From NCBI GenBank assembly GCA_947173495.1, contig CAMWFQ010000006.1, forward strand, positions 124,001 to 188,000: a stretch of 64,000 nt of DNA, read 5' to 3'. Of this stretch, positions 13,627 through 62,227 are shown one piece after another; the stretch's first letter is position 1; every line of letters begins with the position of its first letter. A program made the position numbers and the translations under genes. The notes below the pieces were generated by a model. It did not search any database, had not been told where the DNA came from, and worked only from the letters and a program-made list of their open reading frames with translations. This DNA is from an uncultured Lachnospiraceae bacterium. GTDB taxonomy: Bacteria > Bacillota > Clostridia > Lachnospirales > Lachnospiraceae.

Positions 13627-13694
13627 TTTTATATCGAAACCTGTTTAGGCAAAACCAGGTATCTGGCACATCATTCTATCCACTCCAGATGATT

Positions 13695-13793
13695 ACTGTG
13701 AAAAATTTATTTTTCACAAACGAACTTGTTCGTTTTGCAAATATTGTGCTGACACCCAAATTTGCAGATGTTGGCAACATGGAGATTACTATG
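13695..13793 (+). repeat. Leader repeat, copy 1 (upstream of AraC gene)
   Basis: About 99 bases, roughly 90% identical by eye to copies at 46974 and 49422. It begins ACTGTGAAAAAT and contains three inverted repeats: GTGAAAAAT/ATTTTTCAC, AACGAAC/GTTCGTT, and GCAAAT...AAATTTGC. It ends in ATGGAG and an ATG. In this copy the terminal ATG (13791) opens only a short frame, and the real AraC start lies 79 bases further on after two extra hairpins. Confidence 0.8.
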
Positions 13794-13848
13794 AAAGTCA
13801 AGGACTTTCATAGCATGGATGGCCATGCGGCCTGCCAGAGCGGCAGGC
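13791..13848 (+). other. Two perfect hairpins in the AraC leader
   Basis: ATGAAAGTC (13791-13799) pairs with GACTTTCAT (13803-13811), and GCCTGCC (13830-13836) pairs with GGCAGGC (13842-13848). They lie between the ribosome-binding end of leader repeat copy 1 and the true AraC ribosome binding site (GGAGG near 13859), as if an insertion had separated the repeat from its gene. Confidence 0.5.
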
Positions 13849-13869
13849 TGAACATGATGGAGGTTTACT

Positions 13870-15117
13870 ATGAAATTTGAAGCTGAATTAAATTTTACAA
13901 AAGATCTGCTGACCAATTTCCACCTGACCCTCACCCTGGTCAATATCGCTTCAGCACCGCCTTCTCTGTCCCTGGATCTGGGGCTGCGCAGGCTCCTTTT
14001 CCCCGGTTTTGACTATGGCAGAATCTCCGGAATGCTTGAACGTTTCTGCCTTCCAGATACCATCTACCGTATGGAAGATTTATCCCTGTGTCATTATCTT
14101 CTTTTCCTTATTCCGGATGAAAATGAAAAGATTTATGCCATCATCGGCCCTTATACACTGACTGCCGTTTCACCGGAAGCCCTTCCGGATATTTTCAGCG
14201 GCTTTGCCCATTCCCCTGATGTCCTTCTGCAACTGGAAAAGTACTATCAGGAAATTCCCCTTCTGATGGACGAAAACCGACTGCTGACGCTTGTCTATAC
14301 ACTGGGCAGCCGGATGTGGGGGAGTGCCGAGCGTTTTTCTTTTCAGGACACTCCCGATTTCACAGTAGCTGATTATCCCTTCCCCCGCGCGGCGTCAGCT
14401 GCCAGAGAGATGCCGGAGCCCTTCTTATCCATGCACGTTCTCGAGAAGCGGTATTCTGATGAAAATGAACTGATGAGAGCGGTAGCTGCCGGCCAGAATC
14501 ACAGGGCGGACGTTCTTCTTAACAATTTTACCACCCGGCAGATGGAGCAGAGAAGTACGGATCTTCTGCGCAACGCCAAAAATTATGCTGTCATATTAAA
14601 TACTCTTCTTAGAAAGGCTGTAGAGTCCGCTGCGGTCCATCCTTTACATATTGACAATATTTCCGCCAGATATGCCCGCAGGATCGAGCTCTGCGTCTCT
14701 CCCAAAGCCATTGAAGCCCTGAATCGGGATATGGTACATCATTATTGCCTTCTGGTTCAGAACCATTCTCTGCAGGGCTACTCTCTGCTGGTCAGAAAAG
14801 TCCTCACCCGGATCGACTCCGATCTGACCTCTGACTTAAGCTTAAGCGCCCAGGCAAAACTCCTGAATATTAACTCCAGCTATCTTTCTTCTCTGTTCAA
14901 AAAAGAAACAGGAAATACACTGACAGAATATGTCAACAGAAAAAGGATACAGCACGCTGTTTTTCTTTTGAATACGACCCCTATGCAGATTCAGGTGATC
15001 GCTCAGCACTGCGGTATCCCTGATGTAAATTATTTCACCAAAACCTTCAAAAAATTTATTGGAACAACCCCCAAAGAATACCGGGATTCCATAAAAGACA
15101 GGGCCAAAAAGAACTAA
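13870..15117 (+). CDS. AraC family transcriptional regulator
   Basis: The 415-residue protein has a long N-terminal region without a clear known domain and a C-terminal AraC double helix-turn-helix (about residues 315-410): LSAQAKLLNINSSYLSSLFKK for the first HTH and the family signature IPDVNYFTKTFKKFIGTTPKEYR for the second. GGAGG lies 6-7 bases before the ATG. It is divergent from the GH2-uxu operon and therefore the best candidate for its activator, sensing a uronide or its product. Its last four bases overlap the end of mfd, which runs the other way. Confidence 0.88.
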   Translation: MKFEAELNFTKDLLTNFHLTLTLVNIASAPPSLSLDLGLRRLLFPGFDYGRISGMLERFCLPDTIYRMEDLSLCHYLLFLIPDENEKIYAIIGPYTLTAVSPEALPDIFSGFAHSPDVLLQLEKYYQEIPLLMDENRLLTLVYTLGSRMWGSAERFSFQDTPDFTVADYPFPRAASAAREMPEPFLSMHVLEKRYSDENELMRAVAAGQNHRADVLLNNFTTRQMEQRSTDLLRNAKNYAVILNTLLRKAVESAAVHPLHIDNISARYARRIELCVSPKAIEALNRDMVHHYCLLVQNHSLQGYSLLVRKVLTRIDSDLTSDLSLSAQAKLLNINSSYLSSLFKKETGNTLTEYVNRKRIQHAVFLLNTTPMQIQVIAQHCGIPDVNYFTKTFKKFIGTTPKEYRDSIKDRAKKN

Positions 15118-28979: not shown

Positions 28980-29091
28980 CTCTTATTGTTCGATTCGCCT
29001 TACTTGCTCGTTCGCTCAGGTTAGCACCTTCCGTATACGGGGTTGCCGTGGCTTCACAGGTCCTCTGTACCTCCACCACTCTGAATAAGAG
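28980..29091 (-). promoter_or_regulatory. SAM-I (S-box) riboswitch
   Basis: On the minus strand the P1 arms CTCTTATT (complement 29084-29091) and AATAAGAG (complement 28980-28987) enclose the conserved S-box core: AGAGGTGGAGG-like 5' segment, GAAGCCACGGCAACC and GGTGCTAACC-type motifs. This is the SAM-binding aptamer that represses sulfur-metabolism genes when SAM is high. It sits before metK with a terminator 3' of P1 and a consensus promoter 5'. Confidence 0.93.
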
Positions 29092-46922: not shown

Positions 46923-46973
46923 CAAAGTACAGCACTCTGCATATAATCACACAAAAGAAACGATAAGGTGTAA

Positions 46974-47075
46974 ACTGTGAAAAATAAATTTTTCACAAAC
47001 GAACTTGTTCGTTTTGCAAATACTGTGCTGACGCCCAAATTTGCAGGTATTGGCAGGATGGAGGATTATCATATG
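46974..47075 (+). repeat. Leader repeat, copy 2 (upstream of M19 dipeptidase gene)
   Basis: A 102-base copy running from ACTGTGAAAAAT to the dipeptidase ATG. Its 3' end supplies the ribosome binding site GGAGG (47060-47064), 8 bases before ATG. All three internal inverted repeats are intact. The repeat is also open in frame with the dipeptidase, beginning with a possible GTG codon at 46977, but the internal ATG with its GGAGG is the better start. Confidence 0.82.
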
Positions 47076-48119
47076 GATATTAAAATAGAAGAACCATATC
47101 TTGCCCTGGCGCGGGAGCTCCATCGGGCTTATCCGGTAGCAGATGCGCATCTGGATCTGGCAGCAGAAATCCTGTTCCGGCATCAGGCCGGAGAGCACAA
47201 TGTAATCAGAAATCATTACCTGCCTGATTTCAGATCCGCCGGAATAAAGCTGGTGGTCTCTTCCGTCTTTGTGGAAGATTACGATCTGGAAAGAAGCTGG
47301 CAGGTTGCCCTGGATCAGATTAATGCCCTGAAAGAAGATATGAAAGGGCTTTCTGCTGTCACACTGATCACCGGAAAAGAAGATATCGACCGTATTTTAG
47401 GGAACGACCAGATTGGTATCCTTCTCTATATGGAGGGACTTGACTGCATTCATGAGGATATCGATAAATTGAATATTTTATATGATCTGGGCGTAAGGGG
47501 AGCATCTCTCACCTGGAGCAGGCCCAATGCTCTGGCCACCGGATGCTGCAAGGCAAGAGAACACAGACCGATTCCAGGTCCTTTGACAAAGGCCGGTATA
47601 CTTGCTGTGAAACGGTTGGAGGACTTGTCCATGTTCCTCGACATCAGTCATTTAAATGACGAGGGATTTTCACAGGTGTGCAAAATCGCTTCCAGAAGTT
47701 TCATAGCCACTCATTCCTGCAGCCGCCATGTCTTTGACAGCTATCGGAATATGACCGATGAGCAGATGCGCCTTCTTGCCTCGCAGGGAGGCATTATGGG
47801 ACTGAACGGATGCCAGTGTATTGCCGGTTCCCTCCAGGGAAATCACTTTGAAATGCTCTGCCGACATGTAGAATATGAAGTGGAGAAAATAGGGCCGGAA
47901 CATGTGGGTTATGGATTTGATCTGTGTGATTCCTATGAGGAAGCTGAAGCAGCCGTTCATAACAGAGTATTTGATGGCAGGAGCGACTGTCTCTCCAATC
48001 ACGGTCAGATTTACCTGGTGACAGCAGCATTACTGCAGCGCGGAATGGACCGCGGAACACTGGAACTCATTATAGGTAAAAATTTTATCAATTATTTCAG
48101 GAAGATGCTTCCTGACTGA
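47073..48119 (+). CDS. M19 family membrane-type dipeptidase
   Basis: The 348-residue protein carries the M19 zinc residues: VADAHLDLAAE near residue 20 (His-x-Asp), the bridging Glu in YMEGLDCI near 116, THSCSRHVF near 208 and GYGFDLCD near 278. It cleaves dipeptides, often with D-residues. It has no signal peptide, so it is cytoplasmic here. The start at 47073 has a GGAGG provided by the leader repeat. It faces the LysM/GH18 gene tail to tail across a shared terminator. Confidence 0.87.
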   Translation: MDIKIEEPYLALARELHRAYPVADAHLDLAAEILFRHQAGEHNVIRNHYLPDFRSAGIKLVVSSVFVEDYDLERSWQVALDQINALKEDMKGLSAVTLITGKEDIDRILGNDQIGILLYMEGLDCIHEDIDKLNILYDLGVRGASLTWSRPNALATGCCKAREHRPIPGPLTKAGILAVKRLEDLSMFLDISHLNDEGFSQVCKIASRSFIATHSCSRHVFDSYRNMTDEQMRLLASQGGIMGLNGCQCIAGSLQGNHFEMLCRHVEYEVEKIGPEHVGYGFDLCDSYEEAEAAVHNRVFDGRSDCLSNHGQIYLVTAALLQRGMDRGTLELIIGKNFINYFRKMLPD

Positions 48120-48165: not shown

Positions 48166-48195
48166 AAAAGATGGCCGTATCAGTAGCCATCTTTT
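48166..48195. terminator. Bidirectional terminator between the M19 and GH18 genes
   Basis: AAAAGATGGC (48166-48175) pairs perfectly with GCCATCTTTT (48186-48195), with A/T tracts on both sides. It includes the stop codon of the GH18 gene. Just before it is CCTGCGCATAAA, the same 3' end as in the GC-rich repeats. Confidence 0.75.
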
Positions 48196-49325
48196 CTTAT
48201 TTGGAATGTATCCTCAAGCAACAGCCAGTTGGGACGGAAGAAGCGCATAATCTGCCAGTATCCCATCCCCCGAAGGCCATACTCCGGGATCAACGTAAAC
48301 TTTTCCTTATAGCTTCTCACATCCTCAAACCAAACCTCGTGAAGTTCTCCGTTCTTTTCATATCTGAAAAAAGGCGACATGGCGACTTCATCGAACTGAA
48401 TCTCTGCGCCGGCATCTATGGCAATCTGAACCGCCTCCTGGTTTCCAATGGTTCTTGCCGCAGAAGTCCCTCTTATGTACGGCAGTGTCCAGTCATAACC
48501 ATAATTGGGAATCCCCAGATCGATCTTACCGGGTTCGATACGGGTAACGGCATATTCCACCACCTCCCGCACCTTATTTGCGGGTGCTACAGCCATGGGT
48601 GGTCCATAAGTATACCCCCACTCATAAGTCATAAGAAGCACACTGTCAGCAGCCTTCCCCAAAAGCCCGTAGTCTTTTCCCTGATAGAGTACGCCTTCCT
48701 GTGAGTCCGAAGTTTTCGGCGCAAGCGCAACTGATACCTGAAAGCCGTAAGGCGCAAGAAAATCTCTGACTCCGGCTACAAAATCTGCAAACGGCACTCT
48801 GTCCTCGGGCAAAATATATTCAAAGTCTATGTCAACCCCCTGAAATCCTTTCTCCTGAAGCGTTGCCAGGAGATTGCTGTTAAGCTGCTCTATGGCTGTC
48901 TGACTGTTGACCAGCTCATTGATCAGATAATTACTGAATTTTCCATCCGGTCCAAAAGGCGTCAGCGTAAGAACCGGCCGGACATCTGCTGCCGCAGCTG
49001 CCTGAATCATAAACATATCGTCTATCTGAGGAGGTACCAATTCCCCCTTTGTAGTAAAGCCGTAGGAAAAGACGGACAGGGTGCTGAGATAAGGCAGTGT
49101 AGCCTCCAGCACATCTCCTTTTATAAACGGATAAGCATATCCATTGACACAGGCCGGATCTTTCAAAGATGTTTCCGCACCGACAGACAGGAGAAGAGCC
49201 TGCCCTATTGCCAGAGGATATGGATAGATGAGCTGATTGTCAAATATTACAGAAGATGGAGAAATTCCATAGCGATCAGCTATGGAATCCACCGTATCAT
49301 TTTCTTTCACAATATATATTTCCAG
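48180..49325 (-). CDS. LysM-GH18 spore-type glycosidase (YaaH/SleL-like)
   Basis: An N-terminal LysM domain (YIVKENDTVDSIADRYGISPS, residues ~4-45) is followed by a GH18 barrel with FQGVDIDFEYI near 195. The catalytic Glu is present, while the first Asp of DxxDxDxE is Gln, as often in YaaH-type cortex-lytic enzymes. There is no signal peptide, as in forespore-made spore coat enzymes. No ATG lies near the LysM start. The best start is CTG (49323-49325) six bases after the GGAGG of the leader repeat, giving the usual L/M-EIYIV N-terminus; a GTG five codons later is the alternative. Confidence 0.82.
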   Translation of the reverse strand: MEIYIVKENDTVDSIADRYGISPSSVIFDNQLIYPYPLAIGQALLLSVGAETSLKDPACVNGYAYPFIKGDVLEATLPYLSTLSVFSYGFTTKGELVPPQIDDMFMIQAAAAADVRPVLTLTPFGPDGKFSNYLINELVNSQTAIEQLNSNLLATLQEKGFQGVDIDFEYILPEDRVPFADFVAGVRDFLAPYGFQVSVALAPKTSDSQEGVLYQGKDYGLLGKAADSVLLMTYEWGYTYGPPMAVAPANKVREVVEYAVTRIEPGKIDLGIPNYGYDWTLPYIRGTSAARTIGNQEAVQIAIDAGAEIQFDEVAMSPFFRYEKNGELHEVWFEDVRSYKEKFTLIPEYGLRGMGYWQIMRFFRPNWLLLEDTFQIRKDGY

Positions 49326-49422
49326 AATAATCCTCCATGCGGCCAGCACCTGCAAATTTGGGCGTCAGCACAACATTTGCAAAACGAACAATTTCGTTTG
49401 TGAAAAATTTATTTTTCACAGT
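49323..49422 (-). repeat. Leader repeat, copy 3 (upstream of GH18 gene)
   Basis: The minus-strand copy runs from ACTGTG (complement 49417-49422) to the CTG start codon. It keeps the three inverted repeats, apart from one base change in AACGAA-TTGTTCGTT, and the GGAGGATTAT end seen in copy 2. With copy 2 it forms an inverted pair around two convergent genes. Confidence 0.82.
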
Positions 49423-49461
49423 ACTTCCCGCTGCATTTTTATTATAATATGCGAAGAAGCC

Positions 49462-60623: not shown

Positions 60624-60640
60624 GCACGAAGCGAGGAAAA

Positions 60641-60733
60641 GATTGAAAATTAAAATTTTCAATCGCGAGATTTGTGTCTGCGCGTTGCTTGCCACAAACT
60701 CGTTAAGTCATTCATGGCTTTGCGCAACAAAGC
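60641..60733 (+). other. Three consecutive hairpins between the permease and M20 genes
   Basis: GATTGAAAAT/ATTTTCAATC (60641-60664), CGAG-TTTGTG/CACAAACTCG (60666-60702, one bulged base) and GCTTTG/CAAAGC (60717-60733) follow each other in a 130-base gap within the operon. No T tract follows, so they look like processing or stability structures rather than a terminator. Confidence 0.45.
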
Positions 60734-60754
60734 AGCGCAGAAATGGGGATAACT

Positions 60755-62227
60755 ATGGACAGAAATTTATACAAAAAAGTCGGTAAGTGGTTCGATGAAC
60801 ATCAGGAACAGATGGCAGATGATATCATAAGGCTTGTAAAGATTCCCAGCATTTCCCGGCCTGGGAAGGACGACACGCCCTTCGGTGCCGCCTGCCGGGA
60901 CTGCCTTGAAGAAATGCTTGCCATTGGAAGAGAGCACGGATTCTGCACAGAAAATTATGAAAATTATGTGGGCAGCATCGGAGAGTCCCAAAAAGACTGG
61001 AGCAATATGATCGGTTTCTGGAATCATCTGGATGTGGTTCCCGTGGGCAGCCACTGGCAATACGCTCCCTTCTCTCCTCTTCGGAAGGATTATTTTCTGA
61101 TCGGCCGGGGAGCCCAGGACAATAAAGGTCCCGCGGTGGGAATGCTCTATGTCATGAAATGTCTGCGGGAGCTCAATATTCCGCTGAAGCATCAGCTCTG
61201 CCTCTTTGTGGGATGCGATGAAGAGCGGGGTATGGAGGATCTGGCCTATTACACGAAGCATTATCCCACTCCCTGGCTGTCCATGATCGCGGACAGCGGA
61301 TTCCCCGTATGCTATGGCGAGAAGGGAATTGTGGAGGGAAATCTGAAAAGCAGAGAACCTCTCTCTTCCCTGATCTGCGAGCTCCAGGGCGGAAGCGCCA
61401 GCAATATGATTCCGGACAGCGCGTACGCTCTTCTGCGGCGCACAGAGGCCCTGGATACCGCACTGAGCTCTGCCGCAGCCGATACGGAGACCGGTATGTC
61501 TGCGGAAACAGCACCCTCACGGATCACGGTGGAGACCGGAGAAGATACCATCCGCATCAGCGCCAGAGGCGAAAGCAGACACAGCGCTTTTCCGGATGGG
61601 AGCGTCAATGCCATCCATGAATTGCTATATTTTCTGGCTGCTCTTACTCCCCTGACTCAGGAGGACAGGGACCTCCTTGGCCGGCTGGCCCGTTTATCTG
61701 AGGAATACTACGGAGAGCGTGTGGGAATCTCCGGAAGCGATGAAGTCTCCGGTAAAACCACCTGTGCCGCCACATTATTAAAGTTTGAAGAGGGATACGT
61801 CTCTTTGCATTTTAACATCCGCTATGCCATCTCCACCGATCAGGATAAAATGCTGGCCCAAATAGAATGCTGTGCCCTCCAGAACCGGATGCTCTGGGTA
61901 TTGGAACGAAATTCCGCTCCCAGCTATTTTCCAAAGGAACATCCTGCAGTGGATCTCCTGACAAATCTTTACAATGAGATCACAGGAGAACAAAAGGAGA
62001 GCTTTGTCATGGGCGGCGGAACTTACGCCAGAAAGCTTCCCCGGGCCTTCGCCTACGGGATCGGCGGTATGAGCGAATCCGAGGAAGATCAGAAGCTCAG
62101 AAAGCAGCTCTTTCTTCCCGGACACGGCGGTGCTCATGAACCGGACGAAGGGCTGAATCTGCGTCTTCTGACAGAGGCTTTGAAAATTTATGTTATGGCT
62201 CTCATTGCTCTAAATGACATTTCTTAA
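60755..62227 (+). CDS. M20 family metallopeptidase (PepV-like), second copy
   Basis: The 490-residue protein has the full ligand set: His91/Asp93 (WNHLDVV), Asp122 (GAQDNKGP), Glu156/Glu157 (GCDEERG), Asp180 (IADSGFPV) and the C-terminal GHGGAHEPDEG. It is clearly paralogous to the M20 enzyme at 55.4 kb (GGGTYARKLPRAFAYG vs GGTYARKLPNAFAFG). The two probably act on different conjugates brought in by the transporter. ATG at 60755 was chosen with GGGGA upstream; an in-frame ATG four codons earlier is possible. Its end overlaps the convergent AraC gene by 4 bases. Confidence 0.88.
   Translation: MDRNLYKKVGKWFDEHQEQMADDIIRLVKIPSISRPGKDDTPFGAACRDCLEEMLAIGREHGFCTENYENYVGSIGESQKDWSNMIGFWNHLDVVPVGSHWQYAPFSPLRKDYFLIGRGAQDNKGPAVGMLYVMKCLRELNIPLKHQLCLFVGCDEERGMEDLAYYTKHYPTPWLSMIADSGFPVCYGEKGIVEGNLKSREPLSSLICELQGGSASNMIPDSAYALLRRTEALDTALSSAAADTETGMSAETAPSRITVETGEDTIRISARGESRHSAFPDGSVNAIHELLYFLAALTPLTQEDRDLLGRLARLSEEYYGERVGISGSDEVSGKTTCAATLLKFEEGYVSLHFNIRYAISTDQDKMLAQIECCALQNRMLWVLERNSAPSYFPKEHPAVDLLTNLYNEITGEQKESFVMGGGTYARKLPRAFAYGIGGMSESEEDQKLRKQLFLPGHGGAHEPDEGLNLRLLTEALKIYVMALIALNDIS

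Follow-up and report, generated by a model that had tools for sequence, protein, structure and literature searches.

Rickettsia palindromic elements (RPE) are small mobile palindromes found within reading frames, with which they are translated in phase, and SPRITE is the name of a pneumococcal repeat. The TD-1 and TD-2 RNAs are said to come from Treponema, reportedly described by Weinberg in 2017. GTAG-tagged REPs are hypothesised to be moved by RAYTs (PMC3733652). The family described here shares features with each of these, and its copies sit in the gap between the Shine-Dalgarno (SD) sequence and the start codon of genes.

Three copies of this repeat (family 1), each ~97 bp long, two on the forward strand and one on the reverse strand, are present in the window, the whole stretch of 64,000 nucleotides that was analysed. 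The window also holds single members of two further families (families 2 and 3). The features are as follows.

13694..13789, forward strand: family-1 copy 1, consisting of TAC, the P1 hairpin (13697-13718), the P2 hairpin (13719-13734) and the P3 region
13781-13784, forward strand: GGAG, the SD of copy 1 itself, after which the copy runs into the family-2 copy
13790..13869, forward strand: family-2 copy with a perfect hairpin TATGAAAGTC/GACTTTCATA and further hairpins; the AraC-type ATG follows directly
13859-13863, forward strand: GGAGG, the SD of the family-2 copy itself
13870..15117, forward strand: AraC-family regulator, the gene downstream of copy 1
46965..46970, forward strand: AAGGTG, the native SD left of copy 2, read from the window sequence and from orthologous sites without the element
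46973..47069, forward strand: family-1 copy 2 with P1, P2 and P3 and a new SD, GGAGG, at 47060-47064
47073..48119, forward strand: M19 membrane dipeptidase, the gene downstream of copy 2
48180..49325, reverse strand: LysM and GH18 protein, the gene downstream of copy 3, with CTG in the start position
49326..49423, reverse strand: family-1 copy 3 with a new SD, GGAGG, at 49336-49332
49424..49429, reverse strand: GGGAAG, the native SD upstream of copy 3
60633-60637, forward strand: GAGGA, the native SD left of the family-3 element
60640..60750, forward strand: family-3 element, larger and of the same layout, with a hairpin GATTGAAAAT..ATTTTCAATC at 60641-60664, a stem GCGAGATTTGTG..CACAAACTCG and a GCGC hairpin
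60745-60749, forward strand: GGGGA, the new SD of the family-3 element, followed by an ATG at 60755

The original prediction had placed copies of about 90% identity at 13695 (+), 46974 (+) and 49422 (-), ahead of unrelated genes. Copies do lie at these places and on these strands, and across the aligned part BLAST gives copy 3 93% and copy 1 91% identity to copy 2. A 32-nt core pattern containing one N has three mismatch-free matches in the window and 0 in 100 shuffles of it. The family-1 layout reads TA(C/G)-TGTGAAAAATnnATTTTTCACA (P1)-AACGAACTTGTTCGTT (P2)-GCAAATnTTG-TGCTGACGCC-CAAATTTGC-GGTGTTGGCAGCA (P3a/P3b)-TGGAGGATTAT, in which the P1 inverted repeat is TGTGAAAAAT..ATTTTTCACA, the P2 inverted repeat is AACGAAC..GTTCGTT, and the P3 region comprises two overlapping helices, P3a and P3b. 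The three inverted repeats that had been called nested are thus present, but they are arranged consecutively. Each copy had also been said to end at GGAG(G) and a start codon. That is correct for copy 2, whose right end meets the M19 ATG at 47073. Copy 1 does end in GGAGATTACT-ATG, but this ATG opens the family-2 repeat and the AraC ATG lies at 13870, and copy 3 is followed by CTG (49325-49323), where relatives have ATG in 27 of 28 cases and TTTATG in the remaining one. Judging from these sequences, the LysM-GH18 gene may either start at CTG or have had its start damaged after the insertion.

The three copies belong to a dispersed family, as a search of the source genome and its relatives established. 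BLAST of copy 2 against its own 4.58-Mb genome returned 51 matches, which we read as ~40 distinct places, the remaining matches being mostly the palindrome on the opposite strand; since scoring covered 40 of the 76 candidates, the number may be a lower bound. Some of these copies are 97-98% identical to copy 2 along about 90 nt. A consensus query matched 19 of 60 genomes, all from the same genus (the source genome and 18 of 35 others), and none of 24 genomes from other families of the order. Within the genus, copies are numerous in the source genome, G028 and G029, and none was seen in G002 or G004. A draw across the family, in which scoring stopped at three candidates per genome, gave matches in 14 of 299 genomes and 13 of 298 genera, 12 of them beyond the source genus. 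Among named genomes, the exact core pattern was found in 12 stretches, in Parablautia intestinalis D8-82, Lachnospiraceae bacterium COE1 and Lachnospiraceae or Bacillota MAGs. Phage and plasmid collections contained no family-1 match, one of two family-1 pattern scans of IMG/VR was empty and the other gave a single 48-kb contig with two copies, and a TD-type pattern scan of IMG/VR found nothing. A phage or plasmid vehicle was rejected on these searches.

The right end of the element is closely tied to start codons. A profile built from nine typed seeds recovered 172 distinct instances at 166 loci. In a loose test, an ORF start lay near the right end in 142 of 171 instances, compared with 1022 of 4000 random positions. 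A stricter test used the 155 instances whose right end the profile covers. Of the other instances among the 172, two were excluded for E > 0.001, and 15 either had no covered right end or were located at the edge of a locus. Another element follows in six of the 155, which leaves 149 to be scored. An ATG was present in the 19-nt window at the right end in 140 of 149 (94%) versus 1604 of 5000 random positions (32%), and an ORF of at least 60 aa opened there in 126 of 149 versus 469 of 5000. These instances are partly non-independent, as the same alpha-glucosidase-like gene follows in L083, L089 and L092 and was probably inherited with its element. The exceptions are nine copies with no ATG in the window and 14 with a short ORF only; several of the nine hold another codon at that place (TTG in L255, GTG in L093, CTG in window copy 3, L007). 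In 1.22 Mb of the source genome, 18 of 25 profile hits adjoin an ATG with an ORF of at least 50 aa, with seven exceptions: copies 1 and 3 of the window, the family-2 chimera at C1:13068, three hits that are weak or partial, and C9:89994, a full family-1 copy followed by just a short ORF. Copies away from start codons would have spoken against the original prediction, and for family 1 the counts came out in its favour.

The left end is placed with similar regularity. We aligned 119 filtered flanks with a profile-covered left end at TA(C/G)TGTG. Purines predominate at positions -6 to -2 (G 41-73%), followed by T (86%) and A (97%). A match of at least 5/6 to AGGAGG within 14 nt occurs in 64 of 119 flanks, compared with 23% of these flanks after shuffling and 5% of the 617 windows taken 40-134 nt further upstream; at a threshold of 4/6 the corresponding values are 110 of 119, 71% and 28%. 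This enrichment indicates that the element starts, on its left, right at the target gene's own SD, and the GTG or TTG of the element falls at start-codon distance from that native SD.

Orthologous genes in the genus provide sites without the element. For three genes we searched the 170 nt upstream, on the same strand, with the profile at loci fetched from the genus. Upstream of the GH18 gene, a family-1 hit was found in the source genome only and in 0 of 28 relatives, 29 of the 30 loci being usable. Upstream of the M19 gene, it was found in the source genome and one of 29 relatives (30 of 35 matches fetched), the other 28 being free of hits; the hit in this relative (G029, L298) is a different element variant, which we read, from its sequence, as an apparently independent event. 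Upstream of rnc, the source genome alone carries a hit, with 0 of 29 relatives (30 of 37 matches fetched). At the GH18 site an example relative reads atgcggcaggaatattt-ATGGAAATATATG, where the window reads ATGCAGCGGGAAG-TAC[TGTG...GGAGGAT]TATT-CTGGAAATATATA; at the rnc site an example relative reads aaaaggtgaaat-ATG and the source genome GAAAAGGTA-TAC[TGTG...GGAGATT]ATT-ATG. In one relative whose M19 site is free of family 1 (G028, L304), a short palindrome of another kind occupies that position. The native SD is kept on the left and, most clearly at GH18, native spacer bases are kept on the right, so nothing obvious has been replaced. These comparisons argue that the element inserts between the native SD and the start codon, its right end supplying a second SD. 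Since the relatives are 52-78% identical in the compared protein, the exact joint is not fixed to the base, and the bases there fit a duplicated TA target, a piece of the spacer, or neither. The proposal of a spreading element is therefore well supported, given the numerous copies in front of unrelated genes and the orthologous sites free of them, but its corollary that the element replaces native 5' leaders does not hold, as the native SD and the sequence upstream of it remain.

In our view the ~97-bp leader is likely to be a mobile element, short, non-autonomous and MITE- or REP-like in kind, that inserts in one orientation into the gap between SD and start codon. Beside the placement and the orthologous sites, the paired changes in its hairpins, its modular variants, its tandem copies, the random reading phase and the unrelated downstream genes, all given below, speak for this reading. 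Its right end would recreate an SD and spacer, and so rebuild the initiation site of the gene. An insertion of this type would be nearly silent for expression, which would allow copies to accumulate even before rnc, parA and a gyrA-like gene, and each insertion would make a new SD-start gap and could thereby give rise to arrays. The least certain steps are that a trans-acting enzyme may read the hairpins as single-stranded DNA (or RNA) ends and that the target signal may be a purine-rich SD followed by TA.

Among the alternatives, a system like that of the GTAG REPs survives best, though we regard it as unlikely. In such a system, a Y1 (HUH) transposase or RAYT would have been lost from, or missed in, the source genome, and TAC or TAG plus the hairpin would form the tag. 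A constant TAC/TAG does precede the hairpin (positions 0-2 are TA followed by C in 60% or G in 34%; the base before them is A in 48%, T in 27% and G in 19%), and the elements start with palindromes and have no terminal inverted repeats; by eye the left end TACTGTGAAAA and the right end ATGGAGGATTAT do not form one, as a MITE would have. No clear target-site duplication is seen at GH18 or rnc, where a 2-bp TA would be compatible. However, the tag is TAC or TAG, not GTAG, at the hairpin foot, and the source genome (97.4% complete) has 0 hits to PF01797 despite copies nearly identical to copy 2. Across the genus, PF01797 matches 21 of 37 genomes, all of them among the 36 congeners, yet none of four family-1 end patterns (regular expressions) occurs at 30 fetched Y1 loci, out of 34 matches in relatives. 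A mover of the Y1/IS200-605 type is thus unsupported in the source genome and is kept as a rival. Within 1.22 Mb of the source genome no long, autonomous copy turned up; ten lone left-end hairpins were opposite-strand readings of the palindrome in normal copies.

A structured leader, binding a ligand as riboswitches do or a protein, that spreads by giving genes common control is a quite improbable explanation of the family. In its favour, conserved stems lie immediately before the SD, P3a and P3b, which share bases, might form as alternatives, and TD-1 is typed as Cis-reg in Rfam. The helices themselves were evaluated in an alignment (A1) of 39 distinct sequences. The named helices are paired in 84.8% of cells (82.2% when shuffled, 48.8% in the best slid version), 33 cells changed on both sides compared with 16.3 when shuffled, and the covariation score is 0.147 compared with 0.102 shuffled and at most 0.087 slid. 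The slid control was contrary in two respects, as a +3 shift gave 37 two-sided cells (against 33) and a +2 shift gave 11 two-sided pairs (against 9). P3b pairs in just ~70% of cells, and its covariation is under-counted because MAFFT misaligns the bulge; an arm-swap test was used alongside, in which 0 (P1), 9 (P3a) and 1 (P3b) of 5000 permutations paired as well as the true arms. Both the shuffle and the arm-swap controls ignore the relatedness of the sequences. L255 (TGTGGAAAAT..ATTTTCCACA) is an example of a two-sided change in P1. Taken together, the alignment and the arm-swap test indicate that the hairpins are maintained largely through paired changes, with paired substitutions supporting P1 and P3. 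In folding calculations, the window family-1 copies have z values of -1.75, -1.92 and -2.33, modestly better than shuffles, as does the family-3 element (-1.65), and the family-2 copy has -5.48.

Regulation through such a leader is further disfavoured by its variation and its surroundings. The right-end SD bases of one folded composite sequence are unpaired with a probability of 0.59-0.94, and both SDs are predicted to lie mostly outside stems in the folded RNA. The helices vary between genera, and within family 1 the variants P1+P2+P3, P1+P3, P2+P3 (L101 and L082, the latter ahead of a gene read as gyrA-like) and minimal forms lacking P1 and P2 (L201-L204, L210) all keep the SD-start placement. 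Tandem copies, which speak for the mobile element, are present in L208 (two), L242 (three) and L284 (three), where one right end directly precedes the next element. As a side observation, genes of similar N-terminus (PAP2 in the source genome) in L203 (G009), L228 (G012) and L051 (source genome) are each preceded by a different element variant, hinting, as far as these sequences go, at repeated hits on the same gene. Of 32 ORFs listed downstream of source-genome copies, 28 were scanned together with the window GH18 and AraC genes, and 28 of these 30 proteins have Pfam matches, mostly of unrelated kinds: M19, AraC, GH18, flagellar rod, ABC parts, methyltransferase, asparaginase, TPK, nitroreductase, BlaI-type repressor, RNase III, ParA, DacA-type peptidase, GH38, DegV, MATE, RelB and others. 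No shared pathway was seen among the 30. With the downstream genes unrelated, as foreseen from the three window copies, and nearly all fetched orthologues of the three genes lacking the element, the suggestion of a regulon held together by a shared riboregulatory leader finds no support.

An untargeted mobile repeat, landing anywhere and left at start codons by selection, perhaps since a strong new SD helps, is in our judgement very unlikely to account for family 1. Family 2, in the same genome, is what lends weight to this explanation. It was found in the source genome only, among 60 genomes, often lies in ordinary intergenic DNA and can be tandem. A profile from six real copies gave 24 right ends, five of them followed by another element; of the 19 scored, 11 have an ATG and five an ORF of at least 60 aa, so that placement at starts is much weaker than in family 1. 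With its SD-bearing right end mostly away from long ORFs, family 2 indicates that an SD end alone does not force placement. For family 1, copies farther upstream should be equally harmless, yet 140 of 149 lie exactly at the ATG with the left edge on the SD, and selection alone would hardly put both edges into a ~10-nt gap. For family 3, the 25 pattern matches in 1.22 Mb of the source genome include, by our count, 14 copies; 12 of these copies have an ATG and an ORF of at least 60 aa on the right, one is followed by another copy, and by eye a purine-rich SD lies left of most copies. Families 1 and 2 meet in L005 (source genome, C1:12976-13068), in which family 1 on the left is joined to family 2 on the right at GCATGGATGG, apparently a sign of recombination between the two. 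The source genome holds other repeats as well. A cluster at C1:32829-32922 and 48 other places in 1.22 Mb, with an ATG and ORF at one end in eight of its 49 members, is apparently distinct from families 1-3. A repeat with ACCACCATGAATGAAaGGGGTTTACTTTG..CCTCCGGCGGATGCGCAGAAAATGGGA occurs at C1:5148-5322, C1:316893, C13:26705 and C14:10310, the C14 copy diverging at the left, and partly shares the family-2 end GGGGTTTAC.

A coding role, as a mobile N-terminal peptide or a leader peptide (VKNxFFTNELVRFAN...), can be set aside as highly improbable even though a GTG or TTG lies at SD distance from the native SD and the frame from it is open in all three window copies and open to the downstream start in 70 of 109 instances, since the frame stands in random phase to the ATG downstream (32 of 97 are in frame, 34 and 31 in the two other phases), changes in hairpin length shift it, and early stops occur in some sub-lineages (VKNQLSS*). 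In the other phases the peptides are unrelated, and the peptides differ between genera; a leader with a conserved reading frame is not what the copies contain. The ~33-codon GTG frame of the original prediction is accordingly correct for the three window copies but often closed in the collected ones. The fusion it anticipated at 46977 does occur in the mechanical ORF list, where a 380-aa ORF from the GTG inside copy 2 extends the M19 gene. By the phase counts, this fusion is one of the one-in-three chance cases.

Beyond the non-autonomous element that we prefer for family 1, a broader reading is possible, which we put forward tentatively and hold to be rather less probable than its negation: a class of mobile elements may target the translation initiation signal itself, recognising the SD and, through an SD of their own at the right end, regenerating the target and leaving the gene expressed at each insertion, with TD-1 and TD-2 as members of the same class in another phylum. 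Recognition could fall to an enzyme or to an anti-SD-like guide that pairs with the SD, or could take place on the mRNA. If this is right, these genomes would have, at the ribosome-binding site, an insertion site that rebuilds itself, a translational form of the 'safe harbour' strategy. Some of the false N-terminal extensions annotated in Lachnospiraceae would be accounted for, the two Rfam families would gain a second reading, and a search for an enzyme that recognises SD sequences in DNA or RNA would become testable.

The link to TD-1 and TD-2 comes from Rfam searches. No Rfam family reached threshold on the window elements, and the family-3 copy had zero matches at E of 1 or better. Elsewhere in the window, a SAM riboswitch (RF00162) lies at 28980-29091 on the reverse strand (70.4 bits). 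The gathering scores are 48.7 for TD-2 (RF03162) and 64.5 for TD-1 (RF03155), both of clan CL00124. TD-2 matched six of seven family-1 loci below cut-off, with 26.8-33.7 bits and E of 0.1-2.8, and L255 was unmatched. Over whole genomes, seven of 37 have a TD-2 match at E <= 0.01 and 0 of 37 one above the cut-off; the best family-1 match in the source genome has 33.5 bits (E 0.006), and the best in the genus, 44.2 bits (E 2.8e-5), falls on a larger related variant, L280. Model positions 1-98 are aligned at full length but weakly, and several pairs in the model's 5' hairpin are non-standard here. A strict-filter search with TD-2 across the phylum gave 0 of 398, with filters that also missed known copies of the source genome, which makes this count uninformative. 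In the 1,961-base locus L281 (G019, C57), a TD-1 match (51.1 bits) and a TD-2 match (43.8 bits) overlap on opposite strands, and AAGAAGG-TAAAAT-ATG closes the array. This overlap suggests, without proof, that TD-1 and TD-2 may be one kind of start-site element read from two strands. L281 and L287 (G019:C46) are arrays of TD-1/TD-2-like units on short loci and may be foreign to the G019 assembly.

In the open-licence literature, at the level of titles and abstract openings, we found no insertions between SD and start codon described, which does not imply their absence in print. Like family 1, the GTAG- and CGTC-tagged REP palindromes are short dispersed palindromic repeats, single or grouped, that are presumed non-autonomous in the part of the source drawn on here (PMC3733652); the same part proposes RAYT genes as movers of the GTAG type, whereas family 1 sits in the SD-start gap and no RAYT was found in the source genome. 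The pneumococcal BOX, RUP and SPRITE repeats are likewise small and interspersed. Large BOX elements can create expressed ORFs beside genes; SD-start insertion is unreported in the portion of that source considered, where the ORFs made by BOX are without good SDs (PMC3049150). TD-2 resembles family 1 in having an AT-rich hairpin beside GTAC and then a second stem, in the same order, and the TD-1-matching array of L281 shares the SD-start layout. In contrast, TD-2 matches on the strand opposite to the downstream gene in the loci where strands were compared, all TD-1 and TD-2 scores here are under the gathering scores, and Rfam types the two as RNAs (TD-2 'sRNA', TD-1 'Cis-reg') and not as start-site insertions. 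The RPEs share with family 1 that they are small mobile palindromes touching protein-coding frames. They differ in being in frame and translated, whereas family 1 has a random phase and leaves the gene its own start.
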